A stretch of 64,000 bases of DNA from Tetradesmus obliquus (taxonomy: Eukaryota; Chlorophyta; Chlorophyceae; Sphaeropleales; Scenedesmaceae): NCBI GenBank assembly GCA_030272155.1, contig CP126202.1:124001-188000 (forward strand), given 5' to 3'. Position 1 is the first letter of the stretch; each line of letters opens with the position of its first letter. Below are positions 1 through 64,000 of the stretch, piece after piece. Under the pieces are notes generated by a model that was given only the letters and a program-made list of their open reading frames with translations, was not told the origin of the DNA and made no database searches. The position numbers and the translations under genes were made by a program.

Positions 1-2646
1 TTTGTGCAGGCTGGTGCGCGGCTGTGCAAGGCGCTGGGCCCCAAGCTCCTGCCGCACCTGCCCGTGGTGACGCACACGTTTGAAACCCTATGCTCAAAAC
101 AACAACTACCGCGTCTGTCTGCAGGCTGGTGTGCGGCTGTGCAAGGCACTGGGCCCCGAGTTCCTGCCGCACCTGCCCGTGGTGACGCACACGTTTAAAA
201 AACTATGCTCAAAACAACAACTACCATGTATGTATGCAGGCTGGCGCGCGGCTGTGCAAGGCGCTGGGCCCCGAGTTCCTGCCACACCTGCCGGTGGTGA
301 TGCCGCCGCTGCTGGCTGCTGCGCGGCTGGAGCCTGAGATGAAGGTGCACGACCCGGAGCTGGAGGAGTACGAGGATGATGATGACGTGGAGCACATCCA
401 GCTGGGCGACAAGGTGCGGTTTGGAGGTTTATGGTTTTAGGGTGTCTGTTTTTGAGGTCAAGGTTTTGGGGACAAGAGTTGACTGGTGCACGACCCCGAG
501 CTGGAGGAGTATGAGGATGATGATGGCGTGGAGCACATCCAGCTGGGCGACAAGGTGCGGTTCGGAGTTTAGAGGGTTTAGGGTTTATGTTGTTGAGGGT
601 CGAGGGTTTGGGGACAAGAGTTGAGTGGTACACGACCCCAAGCTAGAGGAGTATGAGGATGATGATGACGTGGAGCACAACCAGCTGGGCGACAAGGTGC
701 GGCTTGGGGCCCCAGGGTTGGAAGGTCCGGGAATATGCGTCCAGGAACAAGTGCTTTTGGTTCGGTTGTTGTACCACATAGATGACAATGATGTGGAGCA
801 CATACTGTTTGGACGCGACGCGTGTTACAGCACCCGTGCTGCAAATTCAACTCTGCAGCATTGACAGGCTGCTGCGCTCTGCGCACCAGCGCGCTCACTT
901 GCCAGTTTGCTCTTTCACTCCTGCGCGCACACATCAACCGGCCCACTAGCTGACCGTGCGGCCTTGCTGCTGCTGCCGCTGCTGCCGATGCAGGTGCTTG
1001 CCATCCGCACCAGCAGCCTTGAGGAGAAGGCCACCGCCTGCAACATGATCGTGTGCTACATCGACGAGCTCAAGGAGGGCTTCTTCCCATACGCCAAGGA
1101 GGTGCGTTTTGGGGGTTTGTGGGCTGCCAGCTTTAATATTGGAGTTGAATCGACTGTTGGCATGACTTTCCAGTCCCCTGTACGGCTGTCGGGGCAGTCA
1201 CTGCGTCAACAATACGCTGGTGCACTCACGCATCACCTGCCAGACATTCGCGCTGCATGCATGCACCTTGGGGGCGTGTGCCTGTGACAAACCCTGCTGC
1301 CCCCTTCATGTATCATGTCCAGTCAAAAGTGCTGAGGCCTCACCTGCCTGCTGCTGCTGCAGCTGCTCCTAATGTTTCGCAGGTGACGGACCTCGTGGTG
1401 CCCCTTCTCAAGTTCTATTTCCATGAGGAGGTGCTTCTGCTTGATCCGCCACACGTGCTCATGATTGTCATATGCTGCTGCTTATGATACACAGGTGACT
1501 GACCTCATGGTCCCCCTGCTCAAGTTCTACTTCCACGAGGAGGTGCGCCGTGCGGCAGTGGCTGCGCTGCCGCACCTGCTGCGCAGCGCGCAGGCGGCGG
1601 CGGAGAAGGGCGTGCCTGGCGCCAGCAAGGTGAGGCGCGGTTGAGGTGCAACTGCAGCTGAGCTGGCTGGCTCGCAGTTCTGTGCAAGGGCTGTTCCGGC
1701 GTGGGGCCTAAACCCAAGAGTGCTATGCAAGGGCTGTTCCGGCGTGTCTGTTGCCTAGGCAGCAGTGCACACGTACTTGCAAAGCAAAGCCTTTCAAACC
1801 CGCGCATTCTACTGCACACATTTCCGCCCTTGTCCTGTGCAGGAGTTCACGGGCCAGATGGTCAGCTACATGTGGGAGCCGCTAGTGGCAGCAGTAAAGA
1901 AGGAGCCGGAACCAGAGCTGGCTGCCGCCATGTTGGACAGCCTTGCAGAGATCGTGGAGCTGGCAGAGCCGGGGCAGCTGGGCGGCCCCCAGGTGGAGGC
2001 GGCCTTTGCTGCTTTCGGGGCCATTCTGAGTGCAGCAGAGGCGCGCCGCAGCCAGCGCAGCAAGGTGAGCTTGCATGGTTGGTTGAACTGTTGTGTTCGG
2101 GGTGTCTGGGGCAGTCGGCTAGGGGTTGTGAAGCGCTTGCATGTAGTGTTGCGAGCCGGGGTTGGCTGCCGCCATGCCTGGCTGAGATTGTGGAACTGGC
2201 GGAGCCGGGGCAGCTGGGCGGCCCCCAGGTGGAGGCGGCCTTTGCTGCTTTCGGGGCCATCTTGAGTGCAGCAGAGGCACGGCGCAGCCAGCGCAGCAAG
2301 GTGTGTGCCGTGGTGCGGCTGTGCTGCTGTTGTGCTTGGGGTGGATGTGTGAGCAGGAGATGCAAAGCATGGGTGTGCGCAGAGTTGTAGTGGTGTACCT
2401 GCTGTGGCGGCTGATCGCTGCTGCGTGGCCCACATGTGCAGTTGGCGCTGCCAGCCAGCAGTTGCAGTGCTGCAGAGACGGGTGTGTTGATGGGCCTCCT
2501 CCCGTCTGCAGGAGTGCTGTGAACATAGATCAAGTGCATGATTGGCAGCTGCTGCCACCACAGCTGCTGCTGTTGCCTGTGACCGGACGGCAGCAGTTTA
2601 TGCTGAGTGGCTGACAGGCTCAACACACACTGTTCAAAGCCTCACA

Positions 2647-2711
<65 letters not shown>

Positions 2712-5700
2712 GGCTGTCACTTCAGCGTGCGTCTGCGGAGGACTTTGACGAGGAGGAGCAGGAGGCGCTGGCGGCTGAGAATGAGCAGGAGGAGGAGCTG
2801 TACGACCAGGTGGGGCTCAGTGGAAGATAGGGGTGTTGAAAAGGCAGAGTGTTGTGCGACTGGCCAAAGCTACAGACGTACATTTCAAAATAGATAGGGG
2901 TTGTGATCTGGGGGTTGATTTTTGTGAGGGACGGGGGCAGAGCAGGAGAGCTGTACGACCAGGTGGGGTCACAGTTGTGTCTAAACTGTGTATGTAGAGG
3001 TCAAGAAACCCTTCTTGATACATGGCACTGCTGAATAATCAGATTGCAGCACTGTGACTGTTGGCACCCTTGCACTGCTGCACGCATGCAAGCGGCCACA
3101 CTAGCGCATTGCACCAACGCTGCTACCCTTGGTGCACCTGCTGGTGTGGCCAGGTGGGCAGCTGCCTGGGCGCCTTGCGCAAGGCATGCGGCGCTGCTGC
3201 CCTCGTGCTGCTTGATGTAGCCCACCTCTGCCTGCTGCCCTCGTGTTGCTTGCTTGATGTAGGCCACCTCTGCCTGCTGCTGCCCTCCTGCTTGATGTAG
3301 TCCGCCTCTGCCTGCTGCTGAACCTTGCTCCAAACTCTGCGCCGGACCCTTGTCAGTGGGCAGCTGCCAGGGTGGCCTCCCCAAGGCCTTTGGCGACGTG
3401 GTGCTGCCGTATGTGGATTGGCGCATGCCCCTGCTGCTGAACCTGCTCACGCCTGATCTGCTGCAAAACCCTGCACGTCCATGCAGGTGGGCAGCTGCCT
3501 GGGCGCATTCCTCAAGGCATTCAAGGACGCCGGCGTCCCGCATGTTGAGGGCCTCATGCCCTCCGCTGCTCAACCGTGCTAATCATCACCCCTGCTAACC
3601 CCTGACCTGCTGCAAAACCCTGCACGTCCATGCAGGTGGGCAGCTGCCTGGGCGCCTTCCTCAAGGCATTCGGCGACGCGGCGCTGCCGTATGTGGAGGG
3701 GCTCATGCCCAGCATCGCGCCGCTGCTGGACAAGGCGCGGCCGGATGAGGAGCGCCGCATCGCGCTGTGCATCATCGACGACATGCTGGAGCACTCCGCA
3801 GCGGGACGCGCCAAGTACCTGGGGCAGGTGGGTTGCTTGGCGGCTGCTGCGGCTGCTGCTGATGGTGATGGTGATGATCTTATACTGCCTGGGCACATCA
3901 CAGTCAACAGCTGCTGCTGCAGAGCTGCAGGCATCTGCTCACGAGCCTAGAGTAGCCTGCGGCTGGCGCTAGGCATGCGGGGCCACCCAGCTGAGCAGCG
4001 GCCCCTCGGCAGGCACCTCAGTACCGCAGTGCACCAACGGTTAGGTCGACCTCCAATGTGGTTCTGCCATGAATCAACGCCTGTCCTCATCCTGCTGCTC
4101 CCTGCTGCGCTGCGCTGCCGTCACACCCCATCACCCGTCCCGCCTGCAGCTTATGCCAGTGCTGCTGGACGCAGCAGGCAGCAGCCACGCAGACCTGCGG
4201 CAGTGTGCGGTGTACGGCGTGGGCGTGGGCGCCTCGCTGGCGCCTGAGTTGTTCAAGCCGCACGCAGCAGCAGCGCTGGCGGCAGTTACCAGCATCATCG
4301 CAGCACCGGTGAGTGGGCGGCGAGGCGAGGATGTCTTTGCATGTGTAGAAGTGCAGGCTGGGTTGCGCGCCACCCTTTCCAGGGAGTTGGGGATACTCCT
4401 GTCCCGAGGGTTGCGCTTTGTGCCATAACTGTGCACCACTGGGCTGCAGCACAAGTGACGTGTAGATGTGGAGGCTGGGTTGCGCGCAACCCTTTCCAGG
4501 GAGTTTGAGATGTTCCTTTTCTTGGGGTTTGTGCTTTGGTGCCATGACTGTTGTGAGTGGGCTGCAGCACAAGTGACGTGCTTACTTGCGGTGCTGGCAG
4601 CGCTGTTGTGTGTGTGGTGCACTTCGCCATCTGCCTGCATATGTCAGCAGCTGTTTCGAGTTCTGTATAAGCACTGTGTGCAGCTGCGTGAATTTCGCTG
4701 GTTTTTCGACGGCATTGGAGGTCCCCTAGGATGCATATGTTATGCAAACTGACGCTCAAACCATGGAGCTCTTTTCCGCTTATTGTCTGAGGGGCAATAT
4801 CGTTGTTAGCACCGCACTGTCCGTTAGCAGCAGCTGTTGTGCTTGAATTAGTGCAAGCCAGCATGCTGCAGCTGCATTTGGCACATCAGATGTTACATGG
4901 AAGTGCATGCATGACTGGGATGTGGCGGGATGGAACGCCTGCCCCACCTGTTGGTGCTTGTGCTGTTGGTTGTGCATGAGTGCAGTTGCTTGTTGTGGTT
5001 GCAACAGGCTGCGTAGTGGATGTGCTCTGGTGCGCTGCTTCCCTGGGATGCATATGTTATGCAAACTAACGCTCAAACCATGGAGCTCTTTTCCGCTTAT
5101 TGTCTGAGGGAAGCAGTGTTGGCACTGGACACCTGCAGCTGGTTTACTCGCCTAGTTACATCTATGGTTGTTCACTTCAGTGTTGACTCGTTTTATGTTG
5201 GGTCTGGTGTGATGGGGCAAGTTGCCGTCATTGTCGCAGCTGTGGGTGCCTGCATCATGGCTCAAGCGCAGCCCGTTGTGTGCCGAATTGTGTTTGCCCA
5301 GTGGTTTGCCGTAGCATGTGTGGTCCCCTAGGATGCAATCCATTATGCAAACTGACGCTCAAACAATGGAGCTTTATTTTCCGCTTATTGTCTGAGGGGC
5401 ATACAAAATGGACATCATATTATTTGGTGTGTCTGTATGCGCACTGCACCATGGCAGCAGCATCAAATACTGTTTCACTTACATGTCAGTGCACACGGCC
5501 AGCGCACTGTGCACACAGTGTGTGCGCCACATGCCGTCACTCGCAGGACGCCAGGTCCGATACATGCACATAACATACATCTTGCCTGATCATTCCTCCG
5601 CATGGCGGCTGCGACTCCTTCCCCCAGCTTGCAAGACGCTAAGAACGGTGTCCGGTGACAACGAGCCGGCACACGTGTGCACTGGAGTGCAGCCTGCCTG

Positions 5701-7039
5701 ACTGATAGCCTGTGTTTCGCCTGTGGTTGTGCTTCCCGCAGGACGCCAAGAGCGACGATAACGAGCTGGCCACGGACAACGCGCTGTCGGCGCTGGCGGC
5801 GCTGCTGGAGCACCACGGCGACGTGCTGGACGCGGGGCAGGTGCGGCGGCTGGCTGCAAACATGGAGTTTGCAGAGTTGTCATGCAAAGCAGATGGATGA
5901 TGTTCACACTTTCCAGCATGTAAGCAATGGGTGCGAGTGGGCTTGGCATGTTGGCGGCGTCTGTTGCTGACATGTAGGGTGTGCGCAATGAGTGCGCACT
6001 GATTGCCAGCAGCTGTGGAGGAGCTGTGAAGGTCACACGGCTTCGTGTTTAGGTGTGGGTTTGTACGTGAGCATGTGCAGAGCTGCTCCGGTGTGTCTAG
6101 CCTGTTGTTGTGCTGTGATGCTGTGTGCAGTCCTGCTGTTTTCCCCTTGCCATTCACATTAACTTCAACGCTGCTGCTATTGCTGCCCCTGCAGATGGCT
6201 GAGCGGCTGGTGGCTGCGCTGCCGCTGCGCTGCGACTCTGTGGAGTCGCAGAAGGTCAACGAGTTCCTGGTCAAACGCCTGGAGGTGCGTTGACCAGGGT
6301 TTGACCAGAGATTGACTGAGCTGCCCTTGATCAGGGTGGTGTTGTGCGGAGCACTGCCTTGCACGTCAGCTTCAGCTGAGAGTCAACACAAAAGCTTTCT
6401 GGCTGTTGGGCAGCAAGCAATGCCACTGGACACAACTACTTTTTCTTAGCAGCCTATTGCTCTTGTCACACCTCAACTCCTGCCGCTGCTGCTGCTGCTC
6501 CTACTGCTGCTGCCACCAGGCCCAGGATGCGCGGTTGCTGGGCCCCTCCAACTGCCACCTGCCCAAGCTGGTGGAGGCCTTCGTGCAGGTGAGGCCTCCT
6601 GCTGGTGACACCACAGCTGGCTTGACAGCACAGCAGCGCAGCGGCCTTACCTTTAGTTGATAGCTGCAGAGGGCAGTGTACAGTATGCAGCTGCCACGGA
6701 GCTTGGCACAGCATGCCTGCAGCTTGGTGGCTGCATCTGCTGCTAGGGTGCTTTGTGTGTGGCTCGGCAGTTGCATGGGTGCCTGCAGCGGCTGCCGCTG
6801 CATCGGATGTGCTTTTTGCTGCTGATGCTGCAGCAGCTATGGTGCTGAGACGCGGCACTGCCAGCTGGACCTGGCTGATGAGGGCATGGGCATGCGCATG
6901 GCTGGGCTGCTGCTAAATGCCCCGACATGCTGCTGCTGCTGCTGCTGCTGCAGGAACTGGGGCGCAGTACTGGCCTGGTTGAGGAGGCTGCGGGCATGCG
7001 CATGGCTGGGCTGCTGCTGAATGTGCCGACATGCTGCTG

Positions 7040-7079
<40 letters not shown>

Positions 7080-7255: not shown

Positions 7256-7256
7256 G

Positions 7257-13222: not shown

Positions 13223-16200
13223 CAGGCACATAACAACCGACAGTTGTCTGTAGCAGAGCTGCAGGCCCCGCTACTGCTATGCCCGCCCTGACAGCGTCAG
13301 CCGTCACAGCAGCACCAAAGCAGCATCTAAGATGCCGGCGCTGCAACCGGGGATCAAGGGCACCAAATTCAGCCTTGTTGCCCGCCGGGCGGATCTTAGA
13401 CTGCCCGGGCACATCACAGTCCACAGATTTCTGCTAAAGAGCTGCAGACCCTGCTGCTGCTGTGCCTGCCCAGACAGCGTCAGCCGTCACAGCAGCACCA
13501 TACCAGCATCTAAGATGCCGGCGCTGTAACCAGGGCTAAAGGGCACCTATTGCAACCTTGTTGCCCGCCGGCAGGATCTTAGACTGCCCAGGCACATCAC
13601 AGTCAACAGTTGTCTGCTGCAGAGCTGCAGGCCTTGCTACTGTTATGCCTGCCCTGACAGCGTCAGCCGTCACAAAAGCACCATAGCAGCATATAAGATG
13701 CCGGCGCTGCATTCAGGGCTAAAGGGCACCTATTGCAGCCTTGTTGCCCGCCGGCAGGATCTTAGACTGCCCGGGCACATCAGTCAACAGTTTTCTCCTA
13801 CAGAGCTCCAGACTCTGCTGCTGCTGTGCCCGCCCTGACAGCGTCAGCCGTCACAACAGCACCATACCAGCATCTGAGATGCCGGCGCCGCAACCAGGGC
13901 TAAAGGGCACCTATTGCAGCCCTGTTGCCCGCCGGCAGGATCTTAGACTGCCCGGGCACATCAGTCAACAGTTTTCTCCTACAGAGCTGCAGACTCTGCT
14001 GCTGCTGTACCCGCCCTGACAGCGTCAGCCGTCACAACAGCACCATACCAGCATCTGAGATGCCGGCGCCGCAACCAGGGCTGAAGGGCACCTATTGCAG
14101 CCCTGTTGCCCGCCGGCAGGATCTTAGACTGCCTGGGCACATCAGTCAACAGTTTTCTGCTACAGAGCTGCAGACCCTGCTGCTGCTGTGCCTGCCAAGA
14201 CAGCATCAGCCGTCACAGCAGCACCATAGCAGCGTTTAAGATGCCGGCGCTGTAACCAGGGCTAAAGGGCGCCAAATGCAGCCTTGTTGCCCGCCGGCAG
14301 GATCTTAGACTGCCCGGGCACATCACAGTCAACAGTTGTCTGCTACAGAGCTGCAGGCCATGATGCTGCTGTGCCTGCCCAGACAGCGTCAGCCGTCACA
14401 AAAGCACCATACCAGCATCTAAGATGCCGGCGCTGTAACCAGGGCTAAAGGGCACCTATTGCAGCCTTGTTGCCCGCCGGCAGGATCTTAGACTGCCCGG
14501 GCACATCAGTCAACAGTTTTCTCCTACAGAGCTGCAGACTCTGCTGCTGCTGTACCCGCCCTGACAGCGTCAGCCGTCACAACAGCACCATACCAGCATC
14601 TGAGATGCCGGCGCCGCAACCAGGGCTGAAGGGCACCTATTGCAGCCTTGTTGCCCGCCGGCAGGATCTTAGACTGCCCGGGCACATCAGTCAACAGTTT
14701 TCTCCTACAGAGCTCCAGACTCTGCTGCTGCTGTGCCCGCCCTGACAGCGTCAGCCGTCACAACAGCACCAAAGCAGCATCTGAGATGCTGGCGCCGCAA
14801 CCAGGGCTAAAGGGCACCAAATGTAGCCTTGTTGCCCGCCGGCAGGATCTTAGACTGCCCGGGCACATCAGTCAACAGTTTTCTCCTACAGAGCTGCAGA
14901 CTCTGCTGCTGCTGTACCCGCCCTGACAGCGTCAGCCGTCACAACAGCACCATACCAGCATCTGAGATGCCGGCGCCGCAACCAGGGCTGAAGGGCACCT
15001 ATTGCAGCCCTGTTGCCCGCCGGCAGGATCTTAGACTGCCTGGGCACATCAGTCAACAGTTTTCTGCTACAGAGCTGCAGACCCTGCTGCTGCTGTGCCT
15101 GCCAAGACAGCATCAGCCGTCACAGCAGCACCATAGCAGCGTCTAAGATGCCGGCGCTGTCACCAGGGCTAAAGGGCGCCAAATGCAGCCTTGTTGCCCG
15201 CCGGCAGGATCTTAGACTGCCCGGGCACATCACAGTCAACAGTTGTCTGCTACAGAGCTGCAGGCCATGATGCTGCTGTGCCTGCCCAGACAGCGTCAGC
15301 CGTCACAAAAGCACCATACCAGCATCTAAGATGCCGGCGCTGTAACCAGGGCTAAAGGGCACCTATTGCAGCCTTGTTGCCCGCCGGCAGGATCTTAGAC
15401 TGCCCGGGCACATCACAGTCAACAGTTGTCTGCTACAGAGCTGCAGGCCATGATGCTGCTGTGCCTGCCCAGACAGCGTCAGCCGTCACAAAAGCACCAT
15501 ACCAGCATCTAAGATGCCGGCGCTGTAACCAGGGCTAAAGGGCACCTATTGCAGCCTTGTTGCCCGCCGGCAGGATCTTAGACTGCCCGGGCACATCAGT
15601 CAACAGTTTTCTCCTACAGAGCTGCAGACTCTGCTGCTGCTGTGCCCGCCCTGACAGCGTCAACCGTCACAACAGCACCATACCAGCATCTAAGATGCTG
15701 GCGCTGCAATCAGGGCTTAAGGGCACCAAATGAAGCCTTGTTGCCCGCCGGCAGGATCTTAGACTGCCCGGGCACATCAGTCAACAGTTGTCTGTTGCAG
15801 AGCTGCAGGCCTTGCTGCTGCTGTGCCTGCCCAGACAGCGTCAGCCGTCACAACAGCACCAAAGCAGCATCTGAGATGCTGGCGCCCGCAACCAGGGCTA
15901 AAGGGCACCAAATGTAGCCTTGTTGCCCGCCGGCAGGATCTTAGACTGCCCGGGCACATCACAGTCAACAGTTGTCTGCTGCAGAGCTGCAGGCCCCGCT
16001 GCTGCTGTGCCTGCCCAGACAGCGTCAACCGTCACAAAAGCACCATACCAGCATCTAAGATGCCGGCGCTGTAACCAGGGCTAAAGGGCACCACATGAAG
16101 CCTTGTTGCCCGCCGGCAGGATCTTAGACTGCCCGGGCACATCAGTCAACAGTTTTCTGCTACAGAGCTGCAGGCCTTGCTAGTGTTATGCCTTCCCTGA

Positions 16201-17399
16201 CAGCGTCAGCCGTCACAGCAGCACCATACCAGCATCTAAGATGCCGGCGCCGCAACCAGGGCTAAAGGGCACCTATTGCAGCCTTGTTGCCCGCCGGCAG
16301 GATCTTAGACTGCCCGGGCACATCACAGTCAACAGTTGTCTGCTACAGAGCTGCAGACTCTGCTGCTGCTGTGCCTGCCCAGACAGCGTCAGCCGTCACA
16401 AAAGCACCATAGCAGCATCTGAGATGCCAGCGCCGCAACCAGGGCTAAAGGGCACCAAATGTAGCCTTGTTGCCCGCCGGCAGGATCTTACACTGCCCAG
16501 GCACATCACAGTCAACAGTTTTCTGCTACAGAGCTGCAGACCCTGCTGCTGCTGTGCCTGCCAAGACAGCATCAGCCGTCACAGCAGCACCAAAACAGCA
16601 TGTGAGATGCTAGCGCTGCAACCAGGGCTAAAGGGCACCTATTGCAGCCGTTGTTGCCCGCCGGCAGGGTCTTACACTGCCCAGGCACATCACAGTCAAC
16701 AGTTGTCTGCTACAGAGCTGCAGACCCTGCTGCTGCTGTGCCTGCCAAGACAGCATCAGCCGTCACAGCGGCACCACAGCAGCATCTAAGATGCCGGCGC
16801 CGCAACCAGGGCTAAAGGGCACCAATTGCAGCCTTGTTGCCCGCCGGCAGGATCTTAGACTGCCCGGGCACATCACAGTCAACAGTTGTCTGCTGCAGAG
16901 CTGCAGGCCTTGCTACTGATGTGCCCGCCCCGACATCGTCAGCCGTCACACCAGCACCAAAGCAGCAACTGAGATGCCGGCGCCGCAACCAGGGCTAAAG
17001 GGCACCTATTGCAGCCTTGTTGCCCGCCGGCAGGATCTTAGACTGCCGCGGCACATCACAGTCAACAGTTGTCTGCTACAGAGCTGCAGACCCGGCTGCT
17101 GCTGTGCCTGCCAAGACAGCGCCAGCCTTCACAGCAGCACCAAAGCAACATCTAAGATGCCGGCGCTGTAACCAGGGCTAAAGGGCACCAAATGAAGCCT
17201 TGTTGCCCGCCGGCAGGATCTTAGACTGCCCAGGCACATCACAGTTGACAGTTTTCTTCTGCAGAGCTGCAGGCCCCGCTATTGATGTGCCTGCCCTGAC
17301 AGCGTCAGCCGTCACAACAGCACCATAGCAGCATCTAAGATGCCGGCGCTGTAACCAGGGCTAAAGGGCAGTAAATGCAGCCTTGTTGCTGGCCGACAG
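13223..17399 (+). repeat. Satellite array, 181/183-bp monomers, about 23 copies
   Basis: The string GTTGCCCGCCGG starts near 13377, 13560, 13743, 13924, 14105, 14286, 14469, 14650, 14831, 15012, 15193, 15376, 15559, 15740, 15922, 16105, 16286, 16469, 16653, 16836, 17019 and 17202, and decays at 17387. Most steps are 181 or 183 bp. The two lengths differ by CACATCAGTC versus CACATCACAGTC. A stretch 13979-14206 recurs at 14886-15113, five monomers (907 bp) later, showing a higher-order repeat. Small ORFs in it shift frame between 181-bp units, so I treat it as non-coding. Confidence 0.95.
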
Positions 17400-17489
17400 G
17401 ATTAGATGCTCCCGCGTCAAGTGAATTTAAAGTCATACACATATTTACAGCTTACATCTCGCTTCTGAGGCTCAATGGAGTGTAGCTTG
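17400..17489 (+). repeat. Right border repeat of the satellite locus
   Basis: Matches 10583-10672 in direct orientation, 6.8 kb apart. It sits directly after the last, decayed monomer. Confidence 0.8.
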
Positions 17490-19148: not shown

Positions 19149-22100
19149 TCACTTGCCCTCAAATGCCGCACGCATCGCTGCCATCCTGTCAGACAGCTGC
19201 CGCGTGTGCGCAGGCGAGGCCTTGGCGCCGCCAGAGCTGCTGCTAGCGCTGGCAATGCCGTCGCGGGCAAGCACATCATCAGAGCCCACACTGCCGCTGC
19301 TGCTCAAGCGCCGCATCGCTGCCAGCTTTGCAGCGACAGCGCTGTCAGCAGGCGCATCAGCAGCATCTCCAGCCGCAGCGTCGTCAGCACCTGGGCTGTC
19401 CTGCTGCTCCGCTGCAGCTGCCGCAGGCTTCTCCGCAGCAGCTACGGCTGCTGCCTTGCCGGCCACCCTGCTAGCTGCAGGCACTGCCTTGGCGACTCCA
19501 CCAGCTGCTACGCTGCCGTCCACAGCGTCCTTCCCGCGAGGCGCTGCCACATCAGCAGCTGACAGCCGCACCTCCACCATGCCATCTGTCGTGCTGCCGC
19601 CACTGCTGCTGCTGCTGCTGGCGCCGCCGCTGCTGGACGCCTTGCTGGCCTCCGCGGAAGCTGGCATCACTGCCGGCACAGCTGTGGTTGCTGTGGGTGA
19701 CGTGGCAGCTGACGAGGCGGCTGACCTGTTGGGGCTAGGCGCAGCAATGCTGGGGATCTTGCTGGGCACCTTGGCTGCAGCACTCGCCACAGTCACCTTG
19801 CCGCCGCCGCCGCTGGTGACAACTACAGCCCTCCTACCAGGCACCGCAGCAGTAGTAGCAGCAGCAGGCGCGTCCGCCGGCTGCTGCGGGATCTTGCTTG
19901 GGGCAGCAGCAGAAGCAGCTGCTGCTGCAGCGCCGCCGCTGCTGCTGCCGTCCTGCTGCTGCGCTGACAGGAAGCGTGACATCACGCTGCCCCTGCCGCC
20001 TGAGCTGGGCCTGCCCAGGGGCGTCTTGGGGCTGCCTGACTGCGGGCTGCTGCCTGCGCTGCCGCTGCCGTTCATTGCATTCATCGCAGCAATGCGCTCC
20101 TTGAGGCTGTTGCTGCGCGGCAGCGCCTCGCCCGCGCCTGCACCTGACTTGGCACGCACAACCGCAGGAGCAGGCGGCAGGCCCGCCTCAGATGCTGGCC
20201 TGCTAGCCGGCTCAGCAGCAGCAGGAGCAGCAGCAGCAGAGACGGCCTCGCTGGCATCAACAGCAGCAGCAGCTGCTTCCTGCTGCTGTGTGTCTGGCTC
20301 TGCTGCTGCATCACGCTCTGCAGGGGCCTCTGCTGCTGGCCCACTGCTGCTGCTGCCGCCCTCAGGCACAGACTCAGCAGAGGCTGCAGCTGCAGCCTTG
20401 GCAGGCTGCGCGCCGCCGCTGCTGCTGCTGCCACGCGTGCTGGTGCTGCGGCCCCTGCCCTCCTCATCTGCATCGTCACCAGGAGGCACTGCGCCAGGCG
20501 CTGAGCCCCGGCCCTCATTGCACGGCTCAGCAGCAGTAGTAGCAGCAGCTGGCTGCTCTGAAGCCATTGCAGCCACGGCGTGCTCAACAGCAGCAACAGC
20601 AGCTGCTGCAGCAGTAGCCGGCGTCTCAGCATCTGCCGCATCCTCAGCAGCAGCTGCTGCAGGCTCATCCGCTGCTGCTGCTGCTGCTGCTGCTGCCGGC
20701 TGCTCCTTGAAGCCCAGCCGTGTCACTGCTGCGCGGCGCTGGCTGGTGCTGCCGTTGCCACGCGCAGGGCTGCTGCTACGGCTGCGCGAGCCTCCACTGG
20801 CCTGCTGCTGCTGTTGTTGCTGCTGCGGGTGCATGCGTGCCTCCTGCTCAACAGCCAGCCTCGCCAGCGCTGCCTGGCGCTGGTTCACAGGGCCGGTTGC
20901 TGCTGCTGCAGCCTCCTCCTTGGCAGCAGCTGCCGCTGCCGCTGCAACAGCTGCCTCATCCGGTTCGTCGAGCACGCCTGCCGCAGCTGCCGCGGCGACC
21001 AGCGCAGCTGGGTTGACCATTGCTGCTGCCAGGTTGGTGCGAGGGGAGGGCTCTGCAATGGCAGCGCCACCAGTGCCGACTGACGTAATGACAGTGGGGC
21101 CGGCAGCGTTGCCGGCACCAGTCGCGTTGCGCGCGGCGGCAGCAGCTGCAGCGCGTGCTGCGTTCATCTGCTGCTGCTCTGCTGCCAGGCGTGCCAGCGC
21201 CTGCTGCCGCTGCGGGATGCCTGGCTGCAGCTCTGAGAGCTCCACTGCTGGCGCTGCTGCAGCAGCAGCTTCAGTGCTGCTCTCTGCCGGCGGTGGCGCC
21301 ACACGCGCAGCAAGCTTGAACTCGTTCACTGCAGCAGCGCTGGCTGCCAGCATCGCCTTGCCACCAGCAGCAGCAGTCATTGCAGCAGCCATTGGGCTGA
21401 GCTTGCTGGGTGACAGCAGCACTGCCTGCAGCTGCTGCTGCTGAAGATGTGCTGAGCCAGCTGCAGCCTTGGGTGAGGCGGCTGACTCAGCTGCTGCAGC
21501 AGCTGCCACTGCAGCGACAGCCACTGCCGCAGCTGCCTCGCAGGCTGAGGCCTGCTGCTGGCCCTCAGCGGACAGGCCGGCAGGTCCAGCTGCAGCAGAG
21601 CAGAGCAGAGGCGCGGCGTACGATACAGCAGCAGGTGAGACAGTTGACGCTGCATACTAAGTATGCGCTGTTCCTGCAAAGTCCCTGCAGTGCTGCTCCG
21701 CTTGTTGCTTGAGGCTGCACTGACCAGGTCCCACAAGGCGCTGAGCAACACCCTGCAAGCAGCTGTCCTGCAAGCCGTGACACAGTCTGCGTGCTGGCTA
21801 TTGCTTGCATGTCTTATTGCCTGCCTGCACGCCAGTTACTGCAAATACTGGCAGTATATTTGTGCCGTACTTGTGCCGTACACCGCTGCTCACCTGGCGT
21901 GGGTGCTGCTGTGGCGCAGGCAGGCGCGTCGGCCTCCTGGGGTGCCCCCAGCTTGAGGCTGGGCGTGGGCTGCCGCAGCAGGTTGCGCTGCAGCGCGTCA
22001 GCCAGGTTGGGGCTGCCCTGCGAGCACCAACAACAGCAGCAAACAGCACAGCATGAGCACAAGAGTGAGAGATGCCACGTGTCTGAGGGGGCCGCATGCG

Positions 22101-40850: not shown

Positions 40851-40858
40851 CTGATCCC

Positions 40859-53016: not shown

Positions 53017-56000
53017 CCTCCACCGCCGTGCCACCATCAGCAGCCGCTGACTGGGATGCTGCTGTCACGCACACTGCAGGCAAGGCTGAATGCAATGCTG
53101 CGCCTGGTACTTCCGCTGCTGCCTGGCTGCTGCTTGCCAGCTGATGTGCTGCTGCCACACGCTGCTCTTCTCTAGCCGCCGCAGCCGCCACTGCTGTGCC
53201 CCCCATAACCGCTGCACCTAAATCTGTCAAGCCTGCTACCTCTGCACCTGGTTCCTGCAAAAGCAGCAAGGGCATTATGTGCGTCTCTTCCTGCTGCAGC
53301 CGAACAGCCGCAGGAGCCATGCATGCTCTGCCTGCTGTTGGAGGGCTGCTGCCCGGCGCTACTGCTGTTGAGCTTGTTGCACCTGATTCCTGCGTCTGGG
53401 CTGCAGCAGCAGCTGCACATGGGCTACCTGCTGCTGGTGGGCTATGGCCAGGCACACAGCCAGATGGGCTGGCACCGGGCGATGCAGCTGGAGTGACCAA
53501 CCAGTAGCCCGCATCCTGGTCTGCTGCTGGTGACAACTGCAGTTCCCATGCGCCACACTCTGCGCTGCTGCTGCGGCCCGGTAAAGGGCTGTACTGCTCA
53601 AGCTGCTCCAGTGAGGCATCCGTATGGTGATTTGCCTGCTGCACTGCCTGCAAGCCTGCTGCTGCATATTCTTGTGCATACTGTGCATCAGCGCCAGCTT
53701 GTGGGCTGCTGGCGTCACAGCACCCCCAAGGCGCGCTGTCAGCTGCAGGGACTGCCGCAGGCCCTGCTGCTGCAGCTGCCGTGTACTCTAGCAGCTCCTG
53801 CAAGCCAAAATCATAGCAGTCAAGGCGCAAGCAGCAGCAGCAGTACTGTGGTGGCAGGGATCAAGCACAACTTGACCAGCGCTTATGTCGTTGACTGTTA
53901 AAACCTTTGTTGAGCACTTGCGTACAAACACAGACATGCTGCCAGCTTGCATCACTCTTCACTCACCTGTCACCTGTGGTGTCTGGTGCAAGGCGCACCA
54001 CAGACAGGCTCAACTGCCCACACAAGCAAGCAAAAGTATGCTCGTGCGCAATCCCCACTTGCCTCACTATCCACTCTCTGCGCACCTGCAGCGCCTGCTG
54101 CTGGCGGAGCACTTTTAAAAGACGCATGCACACGTCACACCTGACCCACCAACGCGCAACAGCAGCAGCACCTGACCCAGCGCCACCTGCAGCGCACTGT
54201 TCTGGCTGCGCAGACGCGCCACCTCCACACACCACTTGCTCAAGGCGCAGCTCCAGCTGGCCCCCAGCACCCGTACATGATGCATTACCGACCAACCACA
54301 CACCTCACAACATACCAGCAGGCAGCCAGCGCCAGTGCGCAACCCAACCCCACCTGCAGCGCTGCGTTCTGGCTGCGCAGGCGCGCCACCTCCTGCTGCA
54401 GCTCGCTCTTCTGGCCCAGCAGCTGCTGCAGCGCGCCGCTCAGCAGCTCCTCGCCGCCCTCCCCAGCGCTGCGCAGCCGCGCGTTCTCCTGCAGGAGGGC
54501 AGTTACAAGTGTGAGAAAACGAATGTTGCAGGAGATGTCATGTGTGTGTATAAACACTGCCGCTCAGCAGCTCCTCGCCGTCCTTGCCCGCGCTGCGCAG
54601 CCGCGCGTTGTCCTGCAGGCAGCGGCGCCCAGATTTCAAAGGAAGATGTAGTGTGACGGGCTGCTGCACCAGGCAGCGGAGACGCTGGGGATGAAGGATT
54701 GGCAGTTGCTGCTGTTTGGAGAGAACCAGTATTCCCGAACCAACTGTTTGCATCGGCTGTGTATACAGTGGCAGTAGCCGCTCTGAGAAGAACACAACAG
54801 CAACTGCATGCATGTCATACTAATGGCAAGCTCCCAAGGGCACCTTGCCTGGACTTAAGTCTTGAGTGCAGCTGCAGTACACAGCGGTAGATGTGCACGG
54901 CATGCATGCCCCGCCCTCCACCTAGAACTGCTGCTGATGCATGCCAGCCTAGCATGACATGCAGCTGCCTTGCAGGAGCACCCTCTCACCTTTCTCAGGT
55001 GTGAGCAAGTGACGTACAGCGTGCCCAGGGTGGTGCGCAGGCAGCGCACCTCCTGCCGCAGCCGCCCAACTTCTTGCTGCAGGACCGCTGCAGCAGCAGC
55101 AGCAGCTGCTGTGCCTGCGTTGCTGCCCCCGCCAGTGTCTCTGCTGCTACTGCTGCTAATGGTAGCTGTATCAGCAGTTGCTGGATTTGCTGCTGAGCTG
55201 TCTGCTGGTGCTCCCTGCTGCTGCTGGTCTGTGAGGCTGGTGCTGCTGTTGCTGTGGCTCAGCGGCTTTGTTGCACCATTCCCTGATCGCCACACACAGA
55301 GAGCAACACCAGCAAAGGTAGCGCCAGGGCCGGCGCTGAGCAATGAGTAAGCAGCACGGTCACAAGCCATGCAGGAGGTGCAGAGCATTGCACTCATGAG
55401 GAATTGAACAAGGATGACGCATGCAGTAACAGGCGTAGACTTCTGCTGTGCTGCAGCGTCGTTTCATCACACTGACAAGTTCCGCAGGTGCATCTCCCTC
55501 AGCTGCCTTCACCCAGCTCACCTGCTGCTAGCTGCTTGCCAGTACCTTGCTGCTCCGGCCGCCTGGCTACATCACTAGCAGCACCACCACCAGCTGCATC
55601 AAGCGCCGATGATTCACTGTGCCGGCCGTCCCTGCTGCTGCTGCTGCTGCTGACAAATTGTTTGCCAGTGTTCGCTGCTTCCTCAGGCGTGTCACTCCTG
55701 CTGGCTAGCGGAGTGTGCCGTGCGCTGCTGCCAGTTGTCACTGGCATGCACATGTTGAACATGACGCCCCGCAGTGCCCAGTTGCCCATCTGCTCAATCA
55801 CCTGCAGCACTGACAGCACGTGTTACCCATACAAGGAGTGAGTGCATCCACATGATGTGCTGGCTCGACTGCTGGAGTTAGACGCGACTGTACTGCACGC
55901 TGCAAGCTGATCGTATGAACCTCACCTGTGACAGAGACTGCGGTGCTTCAAGTGCTGCACTGTCCAGCCCATCCTGCTCAGCAGACGGCTCAATAAGCCA

Positions 56001-57549: not shown

Positions 57550-59120
57550 GGCTATTGCAACACAGTACCACGTACATGTCGTTGATGGGGCACTGTTGGT
57601 GGGGCAGCAGGTAGTCAGAGAGTGGAGGACGTGGCCACATGGTCTTAGCTGCAGTGCTGCTGTGCAGTTCACACTGCCGGGTGCGACAGTTGCTGCCATG
57701 GCTGCCAGAGCAGCAGGCTGTGCTGCTCTGGTGAAGCCATTGCTGCATAATGGCAGCGCATGCATGTGCTGCCAAGGTATGTCAGAACATAATGCAGCGG
57801 GTTTGTGGGTCAATGATTGATCCAGCTGTACCGGGTGCGCAGCTTGCACCGTCCCGGTGCTTTGTGTCAGTTGTATAAGATTGGTGTCTTACTAGTTATG
57901 TGTACACATTGTACACAGGCATATGCTAAGCATGATTGCGTTGCTGGGTGTGCCTGCAGCTGCATGGCACCTAGCCTGGGCTAGTTGGTGCTCAGCCAGC
58001 GCAGCTTTTGCCATCATGGCAGTGCTGGACAAGGCCCAGTAGCTACGCTGCAGGGCCGCCCTGCATGATGCAGCAATGTTTGCTGTTTTTTCTCTGCCCA
58101 ATGAGCCTGTCATTGGCTCCCCAACGGGCAAGGTTACTCTTGTAATTTCCAAAATGTGAAGCAGGTGTGGTCACTGCGTCATCGACATGGCCATGTTGAT
58201 GCCATGGCATCACTTCATTGTTTGAGCGTGTCTGGGTTGGTGCTTGCAGGGTGTCTAAAGCTCTTGCGCTGCGACATTGTGTTACCTGCATGCTGCCACC
58301 TTGTGGGCCTGTTAAAAACGCTGCCACTGGCACCGACAGTGCCACCCAGAGTTTGTGATGTTTCAACAAATGTAACCACAGTAAGCTTCACCTGTCACCG
58401 CCTGCTGATGGACTTGAACACCGTACAACAGCGTTCAAAAGTTGCATGCATGCATTTGAAGTCCAAACCTCATATGCATTGCACATATTTACTACGGTGT
58501 TCTGGCCAGCACATCTCAACATCTGTGGTTCAGCAGCCATGGTGGCCTGGGGGGGCCCACTTCGCCGAGCCTGTGAGTACTCATTATGTTGGCATCGATG
58601 CATGGCATAAACTGCTACGCTGTGCGCTGCCAGACACGTGTCAATATCCCGCTGCACATGCGTATGCCACAGCACCACACCGCGCCACAAGCATCCTCGC
58701 TGCAATCCTGATGCGATTCTTCGCACACTATCTCAACTGTTGGTGCGCGTGCATGCAGCCTGCAGCACAACACCCATCACGAGCACAGCACCGTCCCAAC
58801 CTCTCTGTGCGCATGCCAACTGCCCACATCACAGCAGCACCAGTAAGACCAGTTAAACTGCAGCTGCGTGACCACCACTGTACAGCCACCGCAGCTTCAA
58901 CACCCACCACCGCGCAGCAAACACCTGCCCAGTTGCGCAACCAAACCCTCCAGCAGCGCACACGTGCCACGGCTGCTGCTTCGTGCACAGCTCTGCTGCA
59001 TGCTGCCTTCCGTCCACCTGACCCCAGCCCGTGCTCCGCCCAACACCCACCAACACCCCAATTCACACCCCACCAAAACCTGCCAACACCCCGTCAACCC
59101 CACCACGCCCCGCGGCCATG
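57550..59120. other. Intergenic between convergent SDHAF4 and PRP19
   Basis: SDHAF4 3' UTR up to a possible TGTAA at 58141-58145. Then unassigned sequence with a 363-codon + ORF (58156-59247) that overlaps the PRP19 3' region and has no recognisable domain. The part 59030-59115 is C-rich (CACCCC and CAACACC runs). Confidence 0.55.
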
Positions 59121-59122
59121 CA

Positions 59123-59262
59123 TCACCCCTGCATCTCGGCATCCCCACTCTCCTTCGGGCCAAACACGCGCAGGTTGTGGTCCCCGCCTCCCACCAGGAT
59201 GCTGCCGGCCTTGGGCCCCCAGGCCAGGCTCAGCAGGCCCTTCTTAGGCAGGTCGGGGAAGG
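59123..59262 (-). repeat. Stop-side echo of the PRP19 terminal exon
   Basis: About 140 bp encode the C-terminal blade again ([26 protein letters not shown]), then PKESGDAEMQG and its own stop, against [10 protein letters not shown] in the intact exon. No acceptor stands at the start of the copy. Confidence 0.92.
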
Positions 59263-59387: not shown

Positions 59388-60793
59388 CTACTCCTGCATC
59401 TCAGCATCAGTTGCTGCTGACCCAAACACCCTCAGGTTGTGGTCCCCGCCTCCAACCAGGATGCTGCCGGCCTTGGGCCCCCAGGCCAGGCTCAGCAGGC
59501 CCTTCTTAGGCAGGTCGGGGAAGGCCTTGACCAGGGCCCAGTCCTGCTTGGGCGCGTACACGCGCAGGTCGGCGCCGCCCACCGCCAGGAACTGGCTGCT
59601 GGCGTCAAAGGCCACGGCGCGGCAGGCCGGCTCGTCGTAGGGGCGCAGCTCCCTGCAGGAAAAAATTACATCAGCAGCAGGTCTGGCTCAGTGACCAGCA
59701 CAGTGCGACAGCGTGCGGTGGCCGGCTTGTTGTAGGGCTGCAGCTCCCTGTGCAGCCGTTTGTGAAACTGCAGAGTAATAGGTGGCAGCTGTGCCTTGCA
59801 AAAGCCACGCCCCGCAGCTCCCTGCGGTGAAGACGATGGAGCGGTACAATGTGTGGCAGAGTGCAGCCGAGCAAAGGGCGGTGCGATGAAGTGTGGTCAA
59901 ATGACAAGCGGTTGTCCTACCTGGCTTGGAATGCAGAAGCGGTGAACCCCAAGCAGCACCAAATCAAAATGCTACACAACCCTCGTGCAAACTGCTGCTC
60001 CCCTCAGACAATAAGCGGAAAAGAGCTCCATGTTTTGAGCGTCAGTTCGCATAATTTATGCATCACAGGGGTTGGGAGACCACATCAGCTGTGTGCAAAC
60101 AGCAACGTTGTTGCCACAGCATTTTCCGTCGAGAGCCACGCTGCCCTCAGCCAGCCCACAAACTATACACAACTGACACGCAGCAGCAGTACCCCCGCAG
60201 CACTCACTTGATGCACTTCATCTTGCGCAGGTCCCACACGCTCACACCGTCAGCAGCCACGTGGTAGCCGTTCTCACTGAAGCTCACGACCACTGTGCTT
60301 GTTCACGTTCAAAAACCAATCTCTGCCACACAAGACGTCCTGCCAGGCTGCTAGAAAAGACGTAGCGACTTAAAGCGACAAGGTAAACGAAAAATTTCGC
60401 AAAACAGTATTCCGCGGATGCACTCACTTGATGCACTTCATCTTGCGCAGGTCCCACACGCTCACGCCATCCGCAGCCACAGCCGCCACGTGGTAGCCGT
60501 TCTCGCTGAAGCTCACACCACTCAGGGGGGAGCCGCCGCCAGCCTCAAAGCCTGTGACAGCCTTCTGCTGGCGCATCTCCCAGATCTGAGCCTTGGCATC
60601 TGCGGTGCCAGTGACCAGCAGCAGGCCGTCGGGGTGGAAGCCGGTGCAGGTGTAGGCCGCTGCCGCGCCGGAGCACTGCAGGGCACCCAAGGAAGACAGA
60701 ACAAGCAGCAGCAGTACAAGCAAAGGCATCAAACAAGGCGGGAGATGGAGTAGAAGCCGGTGCAGATGCAGCGCACCGGCACCGCAAGGAGGT

Positions 60794-60835
<42 letters not shown>

Positions 60836-62323
60836 GCAAGACTAAGAGCAGGGTGTGACCAGCAGCAGTCCATCAGGGTGTGAGCCGGCGCAGGTGTAGC
60901 CTGCAATCACACCAAAGCACTGCCGGGGACACAAGGAAAAAGGAACAAGCAGCAGCACCAGCAGCATCGGGGCAACACAGGAGGCGGAGAGGAGGGTCGC
61001 GCAGGTGCAACCGATAGCGGCACCGGAGCACTGCATAAAGGAGCGGCAGCAGCTGTGCAACATGACACACGGCTAGGCTTGTGAATGCACGCAGTTCGCC
61101 GCGGATGCCAGTGACAGGGAAGAACCCTGTGTCACCCGCGCACCTGCTTCAGGCACGCCGTGTGGGCCAAGTCCCGCCAGGCCCAGCTGGCGTCGCTGGA
61201 CAAACACATCTCCGACCCACCGTCCCTACACCGCACAAACAATACCTTTTCATCTGCTGCACGCACCTGCTTCAGGCACGCCGCGTTGTTCAGGTCCCAC
61301 CAAGCCCAGCTGGCGTCGTCGCTCACGCTGACGGCGTACTTGCGGCTGGGGTGCAGCGCCAGCCCCCGCACCTCGCCGGCATGCTCCTCACCCACAGCAG
61401 CACACTCCCAGCTGCCAAACGCGCCCTCCTCTGCACAGCAGAAGCAGCAGCTGCAGACGTCAGGCGCAGCTCACTTGGCGCCACTGCACAGCCGCAGCTG
61501 GCATTGTAACTGATCATTGGCGGGCAAGCAGCCACAGCAACGGCACTGCCTGCGGCTGCTGTAGCTGGCACAGCACAGAAGCTGCGCCACGCAGCACAGC
61601 CTGCCATGCATACCACTGCCAGATGTGGCTGCTGGTCTGTCAGCGCAGCCGCCGTGTTGCCAAGCTGCCTCACAACCAGCCAGGCGCACAGCCGCCCCCT
61701 GCCAAGCCCTCCTCCCCCGTGCACCTGCGTCGCCCGCCGCGCTGTGCTTCCAGAACTTGACTGTCTTGTCATTGATGGTGGTCAGCAGAAGGCTGCCTTT
61801 GCCCCATACCGCTGCATTGTGCAAGACCTGCCATGCACACACCAACCCCCTGCCAAAACTGCCCGTTGCAGTGACAATCAACTTGTGCCATACGCGCCAA
61901 CACACACATTTGCAGCGGCCAGCCACACGGAGTCACCATCACACGGCCCTGTTGAGCATGCATCTAAGCTTGCTCTCACCTGCGTCCCCCGCCGCGCTGT
62001 GCTTCCAAAACCTGACTGTCTTGTCATTGCTGGCGGTCAGCAGCAAGCTGTCCTCGCCCCACACGGCAGCAGTCACGCGCTTGGAGTGGCCGGTGAGTGC
62101 AGGCAGCTGGCGCTGCGCTGCCAGGTCAAACAGCTGCACCGTGGCGTCAGCGCCGCAGCTGGCCAGCAGGTTGGTCTGCGGCGCGGTGGCAGCAGCAGCA
62201 ACAGCAGCAGCAGCAGCGGCAGCAGGGTTGTGAAGCAAGAGCAGGCACATTCAGCCACGTCAAACAGCTGCACGGTGGCGTCAGCGCCGCGGCTGGCCAG
62301 CAGGTTGGTCGGCGGCGCGGTGG

Positions 62324-62360
<37 letters not shown>

Positions 62361-64000
62361 GGCAGCAGCAGGGTTGTGAGGCAAGAGCAGGCACATTGAG
62401 CCACGTCAAACAGCTGCACGGTGGCGTCAGCGCCGTAGCTGGCCAGCAGGTTGGTCTGCGGTGAGGTGGCAGCAGCAGCAGCGGCAGCAGGCAGGGTGTG
62501 AGGCGAGCGCAGGTGCGGTGAGCAGCAGGCAGGGGGGTGATGGCTTGTGACGCTGTGCCGACGTGCCACGCGCACATACAGCAGCACAACAGCTGCTGCT
62601 GCAGAGGGGCACAGAAGGCTTGAAAGGCTGCATTACACTCGACACGTGCCCTTCCTGGTCTGCGACACATGTCAGCTGTACCAACTGACTATCTCCCTCT
62701 ACTGCTGCTCTGTGTGCTGGTTACTGTCCTGCTGCCCTCCTTACAATCAGATGGGCAGGTCATAACACTTCAACAACACGGCCAGCCAATGTCACCTGTG
62801 TGGGGCACAACGCCAGCGCGGTGATGCCCCTGCTTGTGTGTGACAAACCTGTAACAACACCGAATGTAGCTCTGCTTCTTTCAGGCTGCTCTTCCAGTTG
62901 CTGCTGTCCTGCTGCTGTCTTCCTGTTGCTCTTTATAAAACAGATAAGAATGCTCGACGACGCGCAATCGCCAGCCAGCCGCACCTGTGTGGGGTGCAGT
63001 GCCAGCGCCGTGATGCCGGGCTGTGTGGTCTTGTGCAGCGGGAAGGAGCCCGTGAGCGTGTAGGAGCCCAGCTGCTCAACACTGGCGGTGCCCTCCGGCA
63101 CGGCACGCTTGCGGCGGCCAGACGACAGCGCCGCGTTGGTCTGCGCACACAAGGAGAAAAGCGGCAACGCGTGAGCAGGGGAAGGTACAGTAACAATGCA
63201 GTGAAGAACACTGGTGAAAGTTGCATGCTCCAAGGGTAAAGCAGACAGCACTTTGCTGCCCCCGGAGACACGGCCGCTGCAAGCGCGCCGCGTTGGTATA
63301 GACGCAGCAAAAGAGCGGCAGACAGAGAAAGCGGCAAGAGTGTGATGCAGTGCACAAGGCTGGTAGAGGCGCAAACATGTGTGGTACAGCCAATCAGGCA
63401 GCACACTGCCCGCAAGCTGCCTGTCAGATCGGCATGATCTGCTGTGCACAGCTCCTGCCCAAGCCACCAACCTGGGCAAGTAGTGCAATCGCATCATCGC
63501 AGCATCCCCAGCGCCTCCTGCCAGCTGCGCTGCAATATGTCCTACGATTACCGCGTCAACAAAACGACAAGGCAACCACACTTCCCCCCCACCTGGTCCA
63601 GCACTGCACCCATTCCTGGCCCAGCGGCCCCTGCTTACTGCGCTGTGATATGTTGCTAAAACCCAAGCCTCAACCGCCTGAACACACAGCACATGCGCCC
63701 TAATCTTCCCTCACCTGGTCCAGCACCGCAATGACGTCCTGCCCCAGGGCCTCCTGCTTGCTGCGCTTGGCCGGCCCGCCAGCCGCCTCCTCCTCCTCCC
63801 CGGCCCGCTTGCGCGCCTCAGCAGCAGCCTCCATCTCAGCGCGCATGTCCTCGCGCAGCGTCGTGAGAGCGGCACGTGCCTCGTCGCGCTCGCGGATGAG
63901 GCGCGCGATAACGCGGCAGGCAGCATCATGCTGGTACAGCGCGTGGCTCAGCTCCTGGCGCACCTGTGGGTACAGAAAATCGTGCGAAACATAGAGCGTG
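59388..64000 (-). CDS. PRP19: Pre-mRNA-processing factor 19 (PRP19), coiled coil and WD40 part; U-box outside window
   Basis: Ubiquitin ligase and core of the NineTeen complex, needed for spliceosome activation. Six exons in the window join in phase to 425 residues: 63715-63963, 62985-63140, 61980-62175, 61267-61430, 60428-60675, 59388-59652 (TAG). In order: the Prp19 tetramer coiled coil [57 protein letters not shown] blades [125 protein letters not shown]. This matches plant PRP19/MAC3 nearly blade for blade. The N-terminal U-box exon(s) lie beyond 64000. One snoRNA-like element sits in the last intron. Every exon from 63140 down has echoes. Confidence 0.94.
59712..59830 (-). repeat. Acceptor-side echoes of PRP19 terminal exon
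   Basis: GGCCGGCTTGTTGTAGGGCT and GCAGCTCCCTG at ~59719-59751, and CCCCGCAGCTCCCTGCGGTG at ~59810, copy the exon start and acceptor (ELRPYDEPA region). Confidence 0.8.
60000..60071 (-). ncRNA. Intronic C/D-box snoRNA-like element, copy 5
   Basis: A 72-nt element on the sense strand of PRP19 intron 59653-60427. CCCCT/AGGGG ends, C-like box GTGATGC, D'-type CTGA, guide segment CTTTTCCGCTTATTGT, D box CTGA. It differs from copy 4 at only a few internal positions. Confidence 0.75.
60206..60290 (-). repeat. Donor-side echo of PRP19 exon 60428-60675
   Basis: The exon end ([20 protein letters not shown], then KMKCIK and its GTGAGTG donor) recurs ~220 bp downstream. Relative to the intact exon it lacks a 9-bp repeat coding AVA. 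Confidence 0.93.
60740..61035 (-). repeat. Acceptor-side echoes of PRP19 exon 60428-60675, with (CAG)n
   Basis: Fragments encoding the exon start ([20 protein letters not shown]) recur at ~60751-60785, ~60856-60922 and ~60995-61031, in decreasing similarity. A CAG tract fills 60797-60837. Confidence 0.85.
61138..61205 (-). repeat. Donor-side echo of PRP19 exon 61267-61430
   Basis: Encodes [17 protein letters not shown] plus a GTGCGC donor, copying [17 protein letters not shown], ~130 bp downstream. Confidence 0.92.
61722..61825 (-). repeat. Donor-side echo of PRP19 exon 61980-62175
   Basis: Encodes [20 protein letters not shown], then AAGDA and a GTGCAC donor, copying [19 protein letters not shown] with AAGDA. 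The duplicated block includes the CATACCGCTGCATTG and 3' intron filler. Confidence 0.93.
62230..62480 (-). repeat. Two acceptor-side echoes of PRP19 exon 61980-62175
   Basis: Copies encoding [18 protein letters not shown] end (acceptor side) at 62309 and 62455, 134-146 bp apart, each with the same CAG-rich filler. The first ~50 bases of exon are almost unchanged. Confidence 0.95.
62788..62830 (-). repeat. Donor-side echo of PRP19 exon 62985-63140
   Basis: Encodes [11 protein letters not shown] plus a GTGACATTGGC donor, copying [11 protein letters not shown], ~190 bp downstream. Confidence 0.88.
63280..63302 (-). repeat. Short acceptor-side echo of PRP19 exon 62985-63140
   Basis: GCGCCGCGTTGGT recurs ~150 bp upstream of the exon start in gene direction, matching its first T-N-A-A codons. 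It is short, so confidence is moderate. Confidence 0.55.

Follow-up and report, generated by a model that had tools for sequence, protein, structure and literature searches.

What leaves partial copies of exons in the introns beside them, and what keeps those copies recognizable? The question is raised by a stretch of 64,000 nucleotides (nt) from the green alga Tetradesmus obliquus (Chlorophyta, Scenedesmaceae), hereafter the window (contig CP126202.1, C12:124001-188000 of the OEZ86 genome, which comprises 104.66 megabases (Mb) in 17 contigs). The initial annotation of this DNA had described introns of eight genes as holding same-strand copies of exon edges, here called echoes, each carrying one exon-intron junction. 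The explanation that we favour, with modest confidence, is tandem duplication of units spanning one splice junction, with later sequence exchange for which the exon part of the copies serves as the anchor.

Frequency and polarity of the exon-edge copies

Gene models were produced for the window and for five further blocks of 50 kilobases (250 in total), located at 1.00-1.05 Mb of contigs C1, C2, C3, C4 and C9, by a small gene finder with the importin-5 exons as its training set. The models used come from a third, stricter training; two earlier self-trained sets, with tiny exons, were discarded. The 199 strong predicted exons were each searched against 800 nt on either side after masking of simple repeats, which gave 395 testable flanks, and flanks belonging to other genes served as the null, with the cut-off at its 99.9% level. 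A sense match to the exon at or above this cut-off was found in 84 of the 395 flanks, and an antisense match in 4. Same-strand, near-tandem partial copies of exon edges are therefore present where they had been described, and they occur outside the window as well.

The 84 sense copies comprise 34 with the donor lying downstream of the intact exon, 22 with the acceptor lying upstream, 8 with both junctions, 17 with neither and 3 opposite to this arrangement. Acceptor and donor copies are thus not equally distributed over the two sides: 56 single-junction copies obey the polarity rule and 3 break it. Of the three rule-breakers, one is an echo that the gene finder had called as an exon (54556-54612), one is a C2 match whose score just equals the threshold, and one belongs to a 217-nt array in C3. 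Rule-obeying single-junction copies were found on 27 of 114 flanks in the window, close to the "about 25 exon sides" first proposed; one of the 27 belongs to predicted exon 1-66, itself an echo of importin-5 exon 240-413. The corresponding counts are 13/48 in C1, 1/97 in C2, 3/28 in C3, 5/56 in C4 and 7/52 in C9. Echo density is uneven, with nearly none in C2; that block (C2:1000001-1050000) has 49 strong predicted exons and the highest GC content among the blocks, 0.62.

The strict polarity claimed at the outset holds, but it adds no further regularity, since it is forced by tandem geometry. With a tandem unit that extends from an exon into the next intron, the first copy remains the intact exon, and the later ones follow downstream with the donor; acceptors behave as the mirror image. 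For a unit spanning one junction, acceptor copies are confined to the upstream side and donor copies to the downstream side. The polarity rule tells us that the copies are tandem duplicates, nothing more.

Arrays and offsets

From 56 selected exon-echo pairs, 53 were analysed, three being skipped because the intron part was short, negative or out of range. A single copy is present on 34 of the 53 exon sides and two to six copies on the other 19, with an array spacing of mostly 92-166 nt. The offsets of the best copies are bimodal: 32 fall at 95-166 nt, 3 at 167-222, 15 at 223-299 and 3 at 300 nt or more, and 6 of the 15 pairs at 223-299 nt also have a nearer copy. Near-tandem pairs were found in comparable form away from exons. 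There are 31 intron-only pairs and 51 that contain exon sequence; the median offsets are 122 and 120 nt for pairs within introns and between genes, and 134 nt for those with exon sequence. The similar offsets in introns and intergenic DNA indicate that the duplication process is not peculiar to exons. The results support the initial proposal of tandem duplication across a splice junction, and a high local duplication rate fits both the arrays and the intron and intergenic pairs of like offset. The arrays, the copies and their polarity are observed directly, and a past tandem duplication is very probably the origin of the echoes.

Loss of similarity at the splice site

Across the 53 pairs, the exon bins show 6-10% mismatch between the intact exon and its echo. 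In the intron, mismatch rises from 14% over bases 1-5 to 49% over bases 6-10 and reaches 58-68% farther out. It should be mentioned that the search query included six intron bases, so that identity next to the junction is biased upward, while differences among bases 4, 5 and 6 are unbiased. In eight pairs the junction was set wrongly or was not a donor: predicted exon 1-66, the SURF6 and PRP19 tail copies that run through the stop, an exon start placed 30 nt late (1525), a donor placed about 5 nt early (37638), one stop-type copy in C1 and two C3 pairs. Counts repeated on the 45 clean pairs left the conclusions unchanged, with a mismatch of 9.0% in the exon part followed by 14%, 53% and 60-72% in the intron. 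In 15 pairs from homology-confirmed genes, four of them among the eight mis-set ones, exon mismatch is 0.095 and that of intron bases 7-40 is 0.50 (1525 left out of the intron count). The site tables in the junction-step and inner-edge analyses contain no C3 rows, and one C3 array was omitted from the analyses of echo-specific changes, splice-site scores and simulated decay. The length of the similarity run past the junction was not used as a measure, the best alignment lying on another diagonal in 33 of the 53 pairs. This sharp loss at the splice site goes beyond the initial annotation, as do the neutral drift of the echoes and their annotation as exons, both described below.

Had whole units decayed at a single rate, the spacers, i.e. 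the intron parts of the units, would have stayed far more alike than is observed. In simulations of neutral decay with 5-8% change per copy, spacers remain 0.83-0.89 alike; the observed mean spacer identity is 0.58 (52 pairs), or 0.55 in the 45 clean pairs, only 3 of which reach at least 0.8. Between echoes of one array (60 pairs, 19 arrays), identity is 0.888 in the exon part and 0.603 in the spacer, unrelated spacers being 0.443 alike. In 10 of 17 arrays, counting ties, one copy is most similar to the intact exon in its exon part and a different copy is most similar in its spacer. The clearest discordance is at C1 22373, where one copy has identities of 0.95 in the exon part and 0.40 in the spacer and another has 0.84 and 0.90. 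Whole-unit similarity is seen in young copies, such as C1 19247 (exon 0.99, spacer 1.00) and importin-5 240-413 (0.96, 0.82), and spacer similarity is lost in most pairs. From these comparisons, the exon parts appear to share a younger common origin than the spacers adjoining them.

Considering these observations, we propose that tandem duplications with units of roughly 95-166 nt would arise often in this genome. Within genes, units spanning one junction would be tolerated, as the intact exon still splices correctly, and each would leave a partial exon, with an acceptor upstream or with a donor or stop downstream. Repeated events would build arrays, whose untranslated copies drift, as the changes assigned to single copies show (see below). 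The exon part may then be reset again and again by gene conversion or unequal exchange involving the exon and its echoes, while the diverged spacers would escape. For this exon-anchored exchange, taken by itself, we judge the chances to be about even.

The main rival is plain tandem duplication with neutral decay and no exchange, in which TG/CTG-rich intron sequence turns over several-fold faster and the splice site is merely the border between two sequence types. It requires a rate difference of about 4-5 times between neighbouring non-coding stretches in one repeat unit. It also has to accommodate a four-copy phosphatase array in which two echoes match the intact exon at all 35 exon bases and the third is 0.94 alike, next to spacers only 0.40-0.56 alike. 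To reproduce the observed spacer identity, simulations need about 0.2-0.3 substitutions per copy together with indels, whereas echo-specific changes in the exon part amount to 0.04-0.06 per site; faster turnover would agree with this as well as with the smaller number of intron-only than of exon-containing pairs. We consider this explanation rather unlikely.

The pairs form a continuum, young ones keeping both parts and older ones losing the spacer first, which suits faster intron turnover. Several points count against exchange between exon and echoes. The echoes were found through their exon part, which makes the exon identity between echoes partly a matter of ascertainment. Some shared exon parts are just 22-40 nt long, which is short for homologous exchange, and mismatches within the exon part are not significantly clustered (p 0.12), although conversion tracts might cluster them. 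Exchange limited to the exon does not account for the donor consensus kept in echoes (see below), and no exchange event was observed directly.

Coding constraint and splice sites of the echoes

Pooled mismatches by codon position (62, 45 and 155) suggested coding constraint on the echoes, an interpretation that was dropped once changes had been assigned to single copies. In 18 arrays, echo-specific changes number 36, 37 and 54 at the three positions (48 synonymous, 78 non-synonymous), and changes specific to the intact exon number 6, 0 and 13. The 15 clean arrays give 31, 34 and 48 (41 synonymous, 71 not) and 2, 0 and 11, respectively. The third-position excess among echo-specific changes in the 18 arrays is slight (p 0.03), the pairs show no significant difference in codon pattern (p 0.29), and 11 of 13 indels shift the frame. 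The echoes are close to neutral, and the near-even spread of their changes over codon positions implies that they are not translated.

A partner splice site at the inner edge of the echoes is not above background (AG in 13 of 31 versus 0.45 expected; GT in 5 of 20 versus 0.27). The lack of such a site shows that the echoes are not cassette exons, and the absence of coding constraint likewise speaks against a cassette or mutually exclusive exon. In-frame extension through echo donors was also rejected, the offsets modulo 3 being 18, 24 and 11.

Retention of the echoes as decoy splice sites that influence splicing, which the initial annotation had raised, draws on the state of the copied sites. 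In clean arrays, echo donors keep GT in 38 of 41 cases and G at base 5 in 37 of 41; intact donors have this G in 26 of 26, and intronic GT dinucleotides in general in 27%. Donor identity is 0.71 at base 4, 0.90 at base 5 and 0.56 at base 6. Echo acceptors in clean arrays keep AG in 31 of 36, with a tract that is 66% pyrimidine against 72% in intact acceptors. The six intron bases of the query inflate identity near the junction, and echo sites score below intact ones (donors 5.0 versus 6.2, acceptors 4.2 versus 5.9), with a lower share of T in the tract (0.314 versus 0.388, p 0.03). With no partner site above background and no coding constraint, we regard a decoy function as quite improbable; what survives of the proposal is a hint, read from the sequence itself, that echo donors keep their informative positions. 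One possibility is that echo donors with this consensus once acted as the intact site themselves, the first copy having been lost.

Public gene models and a second assembly

Public gene models of T. obliquus take echoes for exons, which gives the echoes practical weight. The OEZ86 model of PRP19 contains a 25-residue repeat that corresponds to the tail echo (59119-59262) and is missing from the transcript-derived proteins of relatives. The OEZ86 phosphatase model has an extra peptide of 17 residues matching the acceptor echo near 38761. In OEZ85, another T. obliquus assembly, the phosphatase carries a 22-residue segment twice with an 11-residue link; the segment is single in the window. The UniRef T. 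obliquus protein A0A383W4E4 has this segment once and neither the OEZ86 nor the OEZ85 repeat. The proteins compared suggest, indirectly, that a second assembly has echoes too and that these vary within the species, and the two phosphatase repeats point to echo turnover within the species.

A further idea is that the echoes come from a diverged haplotype or related genome, through recombination or assembly error. A conserved exon, a free intron and functional-looking splice sites are what two diverged alleles would give, and OEZ85 and OEZ86 may share one pipeline. Evenly spaced arrays of up to six copies are unexpected from haplotype switches, and the echo-specific changes lack coding constraint. 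In addition, no second copy of an importin-5 or PRP19 exon was present in the genome among the matches listed, and the exons of both genes match relatives in a single continuous alignment, free of the deletions expected from random misjoins. A foreign haplotype or chimera is, in our judgment, very unlikely.

Genes and echoes of the window

The gene names importin-5, PRP19, phosphatase, SURF6 and kelch given initially are borne out. The joined importin-5 exons encode a protein whose match to human importin-5 is one continuous alignment (E 6e-78). The 10 modelled exons (240-6588), one of them counted with a start placed 3 nt late, all have phase-0 borders and a length that is a multiple of three. 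For PRP19, the best alignment to solved PRP19 chains has E 2.7e-116, and the protein joined from its exons is 100% identical across 96% of its length to T. obliquus OEZ86_004386. Pfam confirms the tyrosine phosphatase, SURF6 and kelch genes. No Pfam match was obtained for the coiled-coil protein or in a search of ten long open frames, and no Rfam match in a search of the window.

Importin-5 lies on the forward strand. Its intact exon 240-413 is preceded by two acceptor echoes of a 115-nt unit (5-188), with a further copy before the window start (C12:123874-124073), and followed by two donor echoes of a 142-nt unit (485-707). An acceptor echo of the exon starting at 1495 lies at 1362-1434. Donor echoes of exons 1843-2064 and 2726-2809 are found at 2163-2303 and 2940-2968, the former with an 8-nt deletion and with synonymous changes in 9 of 9 changed codons. 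Three acceptor echoes of exon 3636-3827 occupy 3151-3561.

The other echoes located here are on the reverse strand. In the coiled-coil gene, an acceptor-side echo of exon 21894-22017 (22097-22134) has lost its AG (AT), and exon 24516-24620 has a donor echo at 24266-24307. Phosphatase exon 35991-36173 has three donor echoes (35641-35919) and an acceptor echo (36252-36294). Single donor echoes belong to phosphatase exons 37281-37351 (37140-37183) and 37638-37820 (37507-37571), the true donor of the latter lying about 5 nt past the predicted one, and four acceptor echoes belong to exon 38226-38436 (38500-38869). SURF6 exon 41105-41236 has a tail (stop) echo at 40834-40925, with more copies both nearer and farther, and an acceptor echo at 41317-41356, with two weaker copies farther upstream. 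Acceptor echoes of SURF6 exons 41727-41911 and 42560-42675 lie at 42060-42156 and 42727-42785, respectively, and one of zipper gene exon 54354-54488 lies at 54559-54619.

In PRP19, the tail echo of the last exon (59388-59652) lies at 59119-59262, has its own stop and is an exon in public annotation; the acceptor echo of the same exon is at 59720-59750. Exon 60428-60675 has a donor echo (60200-60294) and an acceptor echo (60855-60938). Exon 61980-62175 has a donor echo (61722-61816) and two acceptor echoes (62254-62490). Donor echoes of exons 61267-61430 and 62985-63140 and of the exon ending at 63715 are located at 61139-61195, 62781-62828 and 63586-63644.

The window also holds repeats of other kinds. 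A satellite at 13225-17402 is built from some 23 units, each of 183 nt, and has a higher-order period of 364 nt; relatives of it occur near C4:926884-927670 and, among the matches listed, as one partial unit in an importin-5 intron (3876-3932). A dispersed short element of about 75-88 nt is present in both orientations (4712-4796, 5041-5125, 5314-5401, 43118-43195 and about 59985-60072). It starts and ends with CCCCT/AGGGG-like sequence, and looks like a small putative terminal-inverted-repeat element. At 30764-30966, a 20-nt unit with GGTACC forms a perfect tandem repeat of about 10 copies.

Relation to known systems

Minisatellite-like arrays under concerted evolution consist of tandem units whose copies are more alike than independent drift gives. 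The echoes resemble them in their tandem units, in copy numbers of 1 to 6 and in this excess likeness, but the whole unit is not homogenised, as seen in the exon and spacer identities between echoes. Small within-gene tandem duplications were reportedly held to be common by Gao and Lynch in 2009, in work on internal gene duplication in eukaryotes. Unlike these, the echoes are partial exons confined to introns, arrayed, and present on about 1/7 of the flanks sampled. Introners account for large changes of intron content in microalgae among other groups. The echoes differ from introners in being local copies of the adjoining exon and not dispersed elements. For the two genes tested, importin-5 and PRP19, the best matches listed elsewhere in the genome lie in repeats, simple or intronic, and outside exons and echoes.

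The initial annotation had also seen in the echoes a possible record of intron gain, which our results do not support. A new intron with its ends in two copies of one exonic segment, as in the Rogers model, was not encountered in the sample. Two echo edges coincided with the edge of a predicted exon; both of these exons are tiny and are regarded as gene-finder errors. In the potato RdRp gene, as described in PMC4974935, the tandem-duplicated stretch itself spans an intron-exon junction. The echoes share with that case a within-gene tandem duplication of a stretch carrying splice signals. They differ from it in that there is no new intron; the single-junction copies lie inside an existing intron and the messenger RNA should stay unchanged. 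No account of exon-edge arrays was found among the papers that searches of the open PubMed Central library listed, subscription papers being outside this scope.

According to Table 1 of PMC5966456, T. obliquus UTEX 393 has a mean intron length of 462 base pairs (bp) and 7.8 introns per gene, and its mean intron is the longest among the five algae tabulated there, the other four ranging from 230 to 302 bp. A wider proposal, which we consider unlikely, is that exons maintain, in the introns beside them, arrays of their own edges whose exon part is homogenised by exchange with the intact exon. The copied sites would remain strong enough to compete, and standing decoys in a sizeable share of introns would shape splicing and feed intron growth. 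If the density in our sample (56 of 395 flanks by the strict count) holds genome-wide, T. obliquus would provide a natural experiment: a great number of its introns would contain several competing splice sites, and the junction-spanning duplications, which make introns longer, would form a graded series. The echoes may thus offer a natural record of how introns grow and of how splicing picks the right site.

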